34,551 nucleotides of DNA from Betaproteobacteria bacterium (GTDB lineage: Bacteria > Pseudomonadota > Gammaproteobacteria > Burkholderiales > Casimicrobiaceae): contig DAHUXO010000191.1 in assembly GCA_027307095.1 (NCBI GenBank), positions 1 to 34,551 of the forward strand. The letters are read 5' to 3'. Of this stretch, positions 3,739 to 26,531 are shown one piece after another. The translations under genes and the position numbers were made by a program. The notes below the pieces were generated by a model. The model saw only the letters and a program-made list of their open reading frames with translations. It had not been told where the DNA came from and searched no databases. Position 1 is the first letter of the stretch, and every line of letters starts with the position of its first letter.

Positions 3739-3847
3739 ATGGCCTCTTTCGGGTGGGGCGGACTTGCTAACGTCCTAAACCGCCACAAAATAAGGACTTA
3801 AAGACGATTCTGCATCTGGAACTTGCATTTGGCAAGTCAAAGCGCAC

Positions 3848-4351
3848 ATGGCCCTGCTCCCGATCCTCGAATACCCCGATCCGCGTCTCAAAAAGGTTGC
3901 AGCGCCGGTCGCTGCCGTGACGCCGGAAATCCGCAAACTGGTCGCCGACATGGCCGAAACGATGTATGCAGCACCAGGCGTGGGGCTCGCGGCGACGCAA
4001 GTGAACGTTCACAAACAAGTGATCGTAATCGACATATCCGAGCATCGGGACGACCTTCGGGTATTCATCAATCCGGTGCTCCTGGAGGCCGAGGGCGAGG
4101 CCGAAAACGAGGAAGGCTGCCTGTCGGTTCCCGGCTACTACGACAAGGTCGCCCGAGCGGCGCGAATCCGGGTCCGCGCGCAAAACGAGCGCGGGGAAAC
4201 AATCGAGCTCGACGCCGAGGGGTTGCTCGCCGTCTGCGTGCAGCACGAAATGGACCATCTGCGCGGAAAAGTCTTCATCGAATACCTCTCCCCGCTCAAG
4301 CGCACGCGCCTCGCCGCGAGGTTGCGCAAGAAGCACCAGCTCGCCGGCTGA
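3848..4351 (+). CDS. def: Peptide deformylase
   Basis: Motifs [17 protein letters not shown] and [10 protein letters not shown]; followed by fmt. Confidence 0.97.
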
Positions 4352-4365
4352 GCCGGCGCCATCGC

Positions 4366-5358
4366 ATGCGCGTGGGTTTCGCCGGCACGCCGGAATTCGC
4401 CGTGCGCGCGCTGGCAGCGCTCCACGCCGCAGGGCACACGATACCGGTGGTGCTCACCCAGCCCGATAGGCCATCGGGCCGAGGGCTGGCGCTCGCCGCC
4501 TCCGCGGTCCGACGCCATGCCGACGCACAGGGGTTTCCGGTTCTGCAACCACGGAGCCTCAAGGACGCTGCGTCGCGGGCAGCGCTGCTCGCGATCCCGG
4601 TCGACGTGCTCGTCGTCGCCGCCTATGGGCTGATCCTGCCGCGCGAGGTCCTCGGATGGCCCACCCACGGCTGCCTCAACATCCACGCTTCGCTGCTGCC
4701 TCGCTGGCGTGGGGCGGCGCCGATCGCGCGCGCCGTCGAGGCCGGCGACGCGACGACCGGCATCACGATCATGCAGATGGACGAAGGGCTCGACACCGGC
4801 GCGGTGGTCGAGGCGCGCGCTCTCGACATCGATGCGCGCGAGACGGCCGGGACGCTTCACGATCGGCTCGCGGACCTGGGCGCGGCGACGATCGTCGACG
4901 TGCTGGCCATCCTGGCGTCGAACGGACGACTCGAGAGCCGGCCGCAACCCGAGTCCGGCGTCACCTATGCCGCCAAGCTCGGTCGGGAGGACGCCCGGAT
5001 CGACTGGAACCAGACCCCGGTCGCGATCGACCGCAGGATCCGCGCGATGTCGCCCTCCCCTGGCGCAGCGGCGACATGGCAGGCCGACGCGTTCAAGCTG
5101 TGGCTGGCCGAGGTCCCCGGCGCCGGCGGCTACGCGGACGCGAGCGCGGGTCCGGGGGCCGGCGCCGCCGCCGAGCCCGGTACGATCGTCGCGGTCGGCG
5201 CTGCCGGGATCGACGTGGTCTGCGGACCTGCCGGTGCTCGCGGCATCCTGCGCATCGTCGAGGTCCAGCCCGCAGGCGGCAGGCGCATGCCGGCGGCGGC
5301 CTTCGCGGCCGGACGCCGCATCGTGCCCGGGTCGCGTTTCGGCACGGTGAGCGTGTGA
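4366..5358 (+). CDS. fmt: Methionyl-tRNA formyltransferase
   Basis: MRVGFAGTPEFAVRALAALHAAGHTIPVVLTQPDRPSGRG...LNIHASLLPRWRGAAPIARAVEAGDATTGITIMQMDEGLDTG; start ATG 4366 inside the longer 3823..5358 ORF. Confidence 0.96.
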   Translation: MRVGFAGTPEFAVRALAALHAAGHTIPVVLTQPDRPSGRGLALAASAVRRHADAQGFPVLQPRSLKDAASRAALLAIPVDVLVVAAYGLILPREVLGWPTHGCLNIHASLLPRWRGAAPIARAVEAGDATTGITIMQMDEGLDTGAVVEARALDIDARETAGTLHDRLADLGAATIVDVLAILASNGRLESRPQPESGVTYAAKLGREDARIDWNQTPVAIDRRIRAMSPSPGAAATWQADAFKLWLAEVPGAGGYADASAGPGAGAAAEPGTIVAVGAAGIDVVCGPAGARGILRIVEVQPAGGRRMPAAAFAAGRRIVPGSRFGTVSV

Positions 5359-24941: not shown

Positions 24942-25024
24942 CCATCCGCCTGCGGCTGGCGCAAACTCGAACCCAGGACGCGAGCCGCCGTTGCGGGAAG
25001 CGCGTCCTGTTCCGCGAGGGTCCG

Positions 25025-25597
25025 ATGGCAACACCCCCCGAAGCTCCGTCGCCGCCCGCGCAACGCAGGCGCGAGACCCTGGCCGGGCTCGGCGCGAGCC
25101 TGCGCTCGTTGCACCGCGTGCTGGTCGAGCGCTCCCGCCGCGATTTCGAGCGGCAGCGTCACGCGATCCTCGGTGCCGGCGAGCTGCTGAAGCTCCTGAC
25201 CAGCGATGCGCACTTCGCGTGGCTGCGCGAGCTGTCCGAGCTGATCGTCGACCTCGACATCTTCCTCGATGTCGATCCGGCCCCGGGGGACGATGACGCA
25301 GCCGCGGTCCGCGCGGAGGTCGAACGCCTGCTCGCTCCGCCGCCCGGTGTGGCGACCGACGTCGCCGGGGCCGCTGCCGCGCCTCCGGCTCGCACGGAGC
25401 CTGCGGCGCCCGACGTAGCGCCCGACCAGGGGTTCGGCGCGCACTACTGGACCTACGTCCATGACGACCCCCAGGTCGCGATCGCGCACGGCGAGGTGAA
25501 GCAGGCGCTTTCGCGCCTGCCGAGTCCGCGCGACGTCGACGAGGCAGCGGTGCTGCACGCGCGGCACCTGTTCCGCGAGGCGCGCAGCCACCGCTGA
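25025..25597 (+). CDS. Hypothetical protein
   Basis: Full-length ORF in the direction of the surrounding genes with ATG 25025; no family recognised: [81 protein letters not shown]... Confidence 0.7.
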
Positions 25598-25625
25598 CCC
25601 CTCAAAACCCCAAAACCCGAAAACC
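25598..25625 (-). repeat. Phased T4G4-like G-rich repeats (G-rich on minus strand)
   Basis: Minus strand reads GGTTTTCGGGTTTTGGGGTTTTGAGGGG; plus strand CCCCTCAAAACCCCAAAACCCGAAAACC. Confidence 0.8.
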
Positions 25626-25626
25626 G

Positions 25627-25678
25627 CGGAAAACCGGGACGCACCACGTTTTAAAACGTGGTGCGTCCCGGTTTTCCG
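25627..25678. repeat. Perfect 52-bp palindrome, no spacer; possible terminator or dispersed repeat unit
   Basis: CGGAAAACCGGGACGCACCACGTTTT|AAAACGTGGTGCGTCCCGGTTTTCCG: 26-bp arms are exact reverse complements. The outer pairing CCGAAAACCG (25617-25626) / CGGTTTTTTCGG (25682-25693) extends the structure. Confidence 0.95.
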
Positions 25679-25703
25679 TCCCGGTTTTTTCGGTACGGTT
25701 TCC

Positions 25704-25712
25704 TGCTATAAT
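25704..25712 (+). promoter_or_regulatory. Extended -10 promoter for rplY
   Basis: TGCTATAAT: consensus TATAAT preceded by TGN, about 100 nt upstream of the rplY ATG. No good -35. Confidence 0.65.
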
Positions 25713-25814
25713 TCAAGGCTTTCCGCGCGCCGGCCGGCACGCGGGCGTCGACCATGGCGGACGACCGGCATCGATCCCGGAAGGCCGCAGACAAACCTGA
25801 AGGAGTCGCCACCA

Positions 25815-26531
25815 ATGGCCACGATCGAATTCACCGCGTTTGCCCGCACGACCGAAGGACGCGGCGCGTCGCGCCGCATGCGCCGCGGAGGCAAGACCCC
25901 CGGCATCGTCTACGGCGGGGCCGCGAAGCCGCAGCCGATCGAGCTCGACCACAACGCGCTGATCCACGCGCTGCGCAACGAAGTGTTCCACGCGTCGATC
26001 CTGTCGATGAAGGTCGACGGCGCGACGACCCGCGTCCTGTTGCGCGACGTCCAGATGCATCCGTTCCGCAACGAGGTGCTCCACGTCGACTTCCAGCGCA
26101 TCGACGAGGCGAAGAAGATCCACATGAAGGTGCCGCTGCACTTCGTCAACGCGGACGTGTCGCCGGCGGTCAAGACGCAGGGCGCGATCATCAGTCACGT
26201 GAAGACCGAGCTCGACATCGCCTGCCTGCCGAAGGACCTGCCTGAATTCATCGAGGTCGACCTCTCGGGCCTCGACACCACGCATTCGCTGCACGTTTCC
26301 GGCGTCAAGCTGCCCGCCGGCGTGACCGCCGTCACGCACAGGACGGGGGACCCGGTCATCGCCACGGCGGTCGTGCCGAAGGCCGCGGCCGAGACCGAGG
26401 AGACCGTTGCCGCGGCGGCCGAGCCTGCCGCAGGCGCTGCCGCTGCCACGGAAGCCAAGCCGGCCGAAGCGAAGGGCGCGGAGAAGGCAGGCGAGAAGAA
26501 AGAAGCGGGCAAGGACGAGAAGAAGAAGTAA
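25815..26531 (+). CDS. rplY: Ribosomal protein L25 / general stress protein Ctc
   Basis: [49 protein letters not shown]...[12 protein letters not shown]...[15 protein letters not shown]; followed by CTC domain and an Ala/Glu/Lys tail; upstream of pth. Confidence 0.96.

Follow-up and report, generated by a model that had tools for sequence, protein, structure and literature searches.

TIRYT genes are bracketed by long inverted repeats that contain GGGGWSAS, and some of these repeats form moderately abundant families dispersed as dimers or clusters (Di Nocera 2013, PMC3733652). Most TIRYT genes have been placed in TnpA-Y1 subclass 2.1, which is RAYT group 1; the survey that placed them did not find REP-like sequences adjoining subclass 2.1 genes (PMC6006769). 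For RAYT group 1, the largest of the RAYT groups, a link to dispersed repeats has thus far been left open (PMC6006769). Mobilization in trans by a Y1 transposase has been proposed for REPINs (Bertels & Rainey 2011, PMC3116915).

Here, we describe a repeat family whose closest known kind is the TIRYT, or TIRtron, class. The family came to attention through a palindrome beside rplY in a stretch of 34,551 bases (the window). Based on sequence comparisons, this palindrome very probably belongs to a non-autonomous mobile repeat family scattered through the genome, as a TIR doublet moved in trans by a TIRYT-type Y1 enzyme. We favor this reading because of the number of copies, their doublet form and covarying arms, a transposase gene framed by the repeat, the co-occurrence of repeat and enzyme, and the existence of occupied and empty sites. 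The doublet would consist of two inverted TIR units of ~20 bp in a REPIN-like arrangement, joined here without a loop, and was most likely mobilized by a Y1/HuH single-strand-DNA transposase (TIRYT; RAYT group 1, TnpA-Y1 subclass 2.1), the gene for which is itself bracketed by the same units. The kind of element is already known; what is new is the loop-less sub-form and a further member family.

The palindrome is exact over 52 bp, with 26-bp arms (CGGAAAACCGGGACGCACCACGTTTT and AAAACGTGGTGCGTCCCGGTTTTCCG) and a spacer of 0, as an earlier sequence-only reading of this DNA had described (Table 1). No second palindrome of this size occurs in the window, where the runner-up perfect inverted repeat has 12-bp arms, and palindromes with 26-bp arms are expected by chance ~2.7e-10 times in 34,551 bases of the window's composition. 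The outer arms proposed in the same reading do lengthen the structure, pairing across a 3-nt bulge to give a folded region at 25620-25688. As single-stranded DNA the window doublet has a folding energy of -39.7 kcal/mol (z -11.2). The palindrome had no match in phage or plasmid collections, and nothing thus points to an origin in either. An Rfam scan of the window gave a single match, a tRNA, and a literature search for the core strings of the repeat returned only unrelated papers.

Table 1. Positions of features at the rplY locus and of genes that carry in-frame repeat copies
Feature	Sequence	Positions	Strand	Basis or remark
Hypothetical gene, stop codon 2 bp ahead of inserted block	window	25022..25597	+	no Pfam or NCBIfam match
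Inserted block, approximate extent	window	25600..25699		orthologous-site comparison; missing or replaced in G005 and G011
Outer left arm AAAACCG, partner of 25682-25688	window	25620..25626		remnant of a partial extra unit of the kind that adjoins other copies
Core, loop-less palindrome of two inverted units with TTTTAAAA centre	window	25627..25678		window sequence
Left repeat unit, ACGTGGTGCGTCCCGG read on minus strand	window	25634..25649	-	exact match to unit dispersed in genome
Right repeat unit, ACGTGGTGCGTCCCGG	window	25656..25671	+	matches dispersed unit
Outer right arm CGGTTTT, part of TTTTCCGTCCCGGTTTTTTC (truncated unit without ACGTGGT)	window	25682..25688		copy comparison and fold
rplY promoter, extended -10 TGCTATAAT, just 3' of insert	window	25704..25712	+	sequence; TATAAT-like box kept at empty sites
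rplY (ribosomal protein L25), downstream of insert	window	25815..26531	+	69-98% identical across genus
Genes with in-frame copies	G000 C82	L090:3-2435; L040:785-3013	-; -	
Gene with in-frame copy	G000 C355	L087:791-1870	+	
Gene with in-frame copy	G000 C237	L026:899-2821	-	
Gene with in-frame copy	G000 C148	L051:928-2280	+	

The genome of the window (G000) is a metagenome assembly of 2.96 Mb in 368 contigs, 95.7% complete and, to judge from its neighbors, betaproteobacterial. The unit ACGTGGT[G/C]CGTCCC occurs in it ~95 times in 42 clusters, mostly as inverted pairs, an abundance that sets the palindrome apart from a single-copy terminator. The consensus of all copies is (G)AAAACGTGGT[G/C]CGTCCC[G/T]G[T/G/A]TTTTC. 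Simple inverted pairs (<>) make up 20 of the 42 clusters, and 15 contain three or four units with an inverted pair inside (7 <>>, 6 <<> and 2 <<>>); the remaining 7 have other layouts. Of 35 inverted pairs, 9, at distinct loci, are joined without a loop exactly as the window doublet is; several other pairs are separated by ~14 bp and a third class by ~40-52 bp between 16-bp cores. Variants in the two arms agree within pairs, with 29 mismatches observed compared to a minimum of 70 in 5000 permutations, suggesting that the doublet travels, or is corrected, as one unit. A lone unit forms only a weak hairpin (-2.4 to -3.4 kcal/mol, no better than shuffled sequences), so the enzyme may recognize either the sequence or the doublet as a whole.

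Perfect palindromes can break contigs in metagenome assemblies, and one might suppose that the loop-less form is an assembly artefact in which one arm has been folded back. For example, the rplY contig of G012, the sister genome that shares the window copy, terminates inside the palindrome, and a single flank is matched by its contig C177 both forward and reversed. Such an origin is nevertheless extremely improbable, given that the nine loop-less copies in G000 have flanks that differ on both sides, that several more are found in the separately assembled G012 (C143, C189 twice, C221 and C255), that most other doublets have real spacers, and that the window copy is syntenic with relatives on both flanks. 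Contigs also end or fold back at palindromes at the end of G012 C23 and at the starts of G000 C279, C157 and C342, as well as in G012 C177; short-read assemblies therefore probably under-count the repeat family and break its transposase gene. The G000 segments C228:81-256 and C355:13220-13371 share a left flank and the meaB frame, have 4 and 3 units, respectively, and differ in their right flanks, a difference that reflects either variation between strains or errors of assembly at the repeats.

The sequence-only reading had suggested looking for an associated RAYT/Y1 transposase, and one is present in G012. Contig C9 of G012 encodes a 286-aa IS200-like Y1 transposase (3928-4785; PF01797, E=1.7e-14) with HVH (NHVH) and Y...NP (YIEMNP) motifs, which scores 71 bits against the NCBIfam model REP_Tyr_transpos, whose cut-off is 80. 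The gene adjoins hemL and is bracketed by two inverted units on each side, at 3799-3837 (-) and 4825-4863 (+). A PDB sequence search with this enzyme found nothing at E<0.1, and its extended C-terminus matches neither an HTH nor the DnaA_C family in Pfam. An orthologue (~86% identical) is represented in G000 by its 3' end, which occupies the first bases of contig C342, with two units 110 bp on. The neighboring hemL is likewise cut by a contig end, suggesting that the G000 gene is most likely present and was broken by the assembly, which contains only a C-terminal fragment. Because this fragment comprises the C-terminal extension alone, a PF01797 family search of G000 missed it, and a protein search with the G012 enzyme recovered it.

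The type of repeat tracks the type of transposase, both within the genus and in distant genomes. Among the transposases from six other genus members (42-49% identical), five are bracketed by different inverted repeats; the flanks of the sixth, in G008, contain no matching repeat pair. Outside the genus, an Aromatoleum metagenome-assembled genome (MAG) that contains the window unit has the best-matching transposase (63% identical), which is bracketed by that unit. The same arrangement is found in a Burkholderiales MAG with the window unit, and enzymes from tubeworm symbionts are bracketed by the closely related repeat GGGGACAGACCACGG. The Y1 transposases of the genus and their inverted repeats could readily serve to study how transposases and repeats coevolve. 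A second Y1 gene of G012 (L092, C219) is bracketed by a different repeat, GGGGTCAGAGCT, and the repeats that bracket the other Y1 transposases of the genus (L136-L141), that of G008 excepted, include GGTCCGACCCTATTTA and GTGTCAGACACCG, among others.

By analogy with IS200/IS605 and TnpA-REP enzymes, the transposase would cut the folded single-stranded doublet and paste it elsewhere, probably during replication, and the loop-less form would still be mobile as a unit. More tentatively, with a likelihood that we put a little below even, a RAYT-group-1 enzyme may drive a recent expansion of TIR doublets in which the loop-less palindrome is a self-contained, actively spreading form and the family remodels proteins in frame. 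A close pair of genomes with and without individual copies, together with the framed transposase, constitutes a natural system in which to test the movement of TIR doublets by group 1 enzymes, and the loop-less doublets provide a simple single-strand substrate.

Like TIRYT genes and TIRtrons, the lineage has a Y1 gene (PF01797, HuH, Y...NP) bracketed by long inverted repeats that are also dispersed as dimers or clusters. The GGGGWSAS core is matched with at least one mismatch by the window unit (GGGGACGC or CGGGACGC) and exactly by the sibling TIRs GGGGTCAG and GGGGACAG. The window family goes beyond the described TIRYT families in its ~95 units in 42 clusters, its fused loop-less sub-form, and its occupied and empty sites between close species. 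We infer that the enzyme belongs to subclass 2.1; in contrast to the members of that subclass surveyed previously, which were without REP-like neighbors (PMC6006769), its gene is bracketed by the dispersed repeats. The doublets resemble REPINs, being two inverted units with covarying arms that fold into one hairpin and are kept as a single mobile unit. Unlike REPINs, they are built from units without a conserved, GTAG-footed strong hairpin, a quarter of the pairs have a spacer of 0, and the enzyme comes from another clade.

Other known classes share some of these features. As in the GTAG REPs and BIMEs of enterobacteria and pseudomonads, the repeats are extragenic palindromes downstream of genes that occur as dimers and clusters; unlike in those families, the unit contains GTGG with no conserved foot hairpin, and the sibling families lack GT[AG]G. 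The sequence-only reading was right in suggesting a mobile and dispersed REP/MITE-like repeat, as the copies, transposase and empty sites indicate, and the class of the repeat is a TIRYT-type TIR. We rejected canonical GTAG REPs because the unit hairpins are weak and variable between variants and the sibling TIRs lack GT[AG]G, and we rejected a DDE-type MITE because the cognate enzyme is of the Y1 type and the occupied and empty sites compared on contig C16 have no clear duplication. CGTC REPs and rickettsial RPE (PMC3733652) are similar to the window family in forming palindromic dimers, in having CGTC in the unit, and in being inserted in frame within genes for replication and repair. The CGTC families have 8-9-bp stems and are without a dedicated transposase (PMC3733652), whereas the window family has a cognate one.

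Among the 22 genomes of the genus, exact units number 89 in G000, 102 in G012 and 1 in G017; the remaining 19 have none. A reversed-pattern control occurred once in this set, in a repeat-free genome, and not at all in the repeat-bearing genomes. Comparison of orthologous sites revealed both occupied and empty states, as the sequence-only reading had proposed to look for. For example, a loop-less copy on contig C16 of G000 is missing in G012, whose sequence is 100% identical over the following 122 bp, and in the outgroup G011, placing the insertion on the G000 lineage. The loop-less site on C221 is filled in G000 and G012 and empty in G005. The loop-less sites on C189 of G012 have no matching sequence in G000. 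Neither a clear target-site duplication, in the C16 pair, nor a clear cleavage tetranucleotide was found. The lack of a target duplication would fit a spread of doublets without a transposase, through template switching at hairpins or gene conversion, with the match between transposase flanks and repeat being incidental; strand switching could also produce the agreement of arms within pairs. We regard this as very unlikely, since the empty site is clean and the tracking of transposase type by repeat type extends across the genus and to distant genomes.

The rplY locus itself is among the polymorphic sites. The palindrome is common to G000 and G012 and missing from the orthologous sites of G005, G011 and G014, which places the insertion before the split of G000 and G012, in their common ancestor. 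The palindrome begins 29 bp past the hypothetical gene's stop codon and ends 25 bp ahead of the extended -10 of rplY; the insertion landed between that stop codon and an already existing promoter. Sequence orthologous to the hypothetical gene precedes rplY in G005, G011 and G014.

This position resembles that of other copies. In G000, repeat copies closely trail stop codons. A simple codon-based gene finder resolved the intergenic gap around 28 clusters: half of these gaps (14) are convergent, the other 14 are co-directional, and divergent gaps are absent. In the same stretches, the 46 gaps that lack a repeat comprise 2 convergent, 31 co-directional and 13 divergent ones (Fisher test on divergence, p=0.0012). 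Placement downstream of genes agrees with published REP behavior (PMC3733652). The bias toward 3' ends is compatible with selection against insertions in promoters and with a terminator-like role; it may have arisen because promoter disruption is selected against and a hairpin behind a stop codon is tolerated or useful.

The absence of divergent gaps could also be expected if the palindrome were primarily an intrinsic (bidirectional) terminator separating rplY from transcription of the prs-SDR-hypothetical operon, with repetition reflecting convergent use of a sequence that terminates well. The predicted RNA hairpin (-48 to -63 kcal/mol) and a GC-rich CCCGG stem followed by TTTT on both strands point in the same direction. 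We find this very unlikely as a primary identity, because it leaves unexplained the identical sequence at unrelated loci, the transposase genes bracketed by the repeat unit, the lack of copies in 19 of the 22 genomes of the genus and the in-frame copies within genes. An ordinary terminator already adjoins some copies (for example, CCCCGCCGCGTGCGGGGCTTTTTG on C353), and a consensus terminator scan identified none at the palindrome. The hairpin followed by a T6 tract in the sequence-only reading holds in part: the tract is real (25685-25690), but TCCCGG (6 nt) separates it from the perfect stem, and four of its six T residues are base-paired in the extended fold. The palindrome thus differs from an intrinsic terminator, in which a GC-rich stem is followed directly by a U-run. 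Neither a lone strong terminator nor a cruciform-forming regulatory site, both raised previously, found support as its main identity.

The palindrome may still act secondarily as a boundary or in a terminator-like way. Its site between stop codon and extended -10, its persistence in both G000 and G012, and the 3'-end bias of copies would accord with a mobile element that was later co-opted at rplY as a terminator or boundary, an account that is compatible with the mobile-repeat explanation. Retention is limited to two genomes, however, and neutral tolerance combined with purifying selection against promoter insertions predicts the same pattern, and we therefore consider co-option unlikely, though less so than the other alternatives.

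As a mobile repeat, the family also reaches into genes. In G000, copies lie in frame within real genes, namely those for DnaE2 (error-prone DNA polymerase; two copies), the MeaB GTPase, a MetX-MetW fusion and a membrane protein (one copy each), and they illustrate how such repeats could reshape proteins. The metX and metW genes have been joined into a single open frame by a repeat copy, and are fused in G012 too. The homologous place in DnaE2 is occupied by one unit in a MAG of the Burkholderiaceae (L145). In G005, a sibling loop-less doublet with the core AC[GC]GGGTCCGTCCC (L109 near 1586-1637, C102) lies at the same dnaE2 position as one of the G000 copies.

Downstream of the insert, the 5' leader of rplY (25756-25792 in the window) contains a motif, GCGGACGACC ... 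GGAAGGCCGCAGAC, that is kept in 14 of the 15 members of the genus that were compared. The motif flanks a hairpin of variable length, has no Rfam match, and is possibly an L25 autoregulatory leader.
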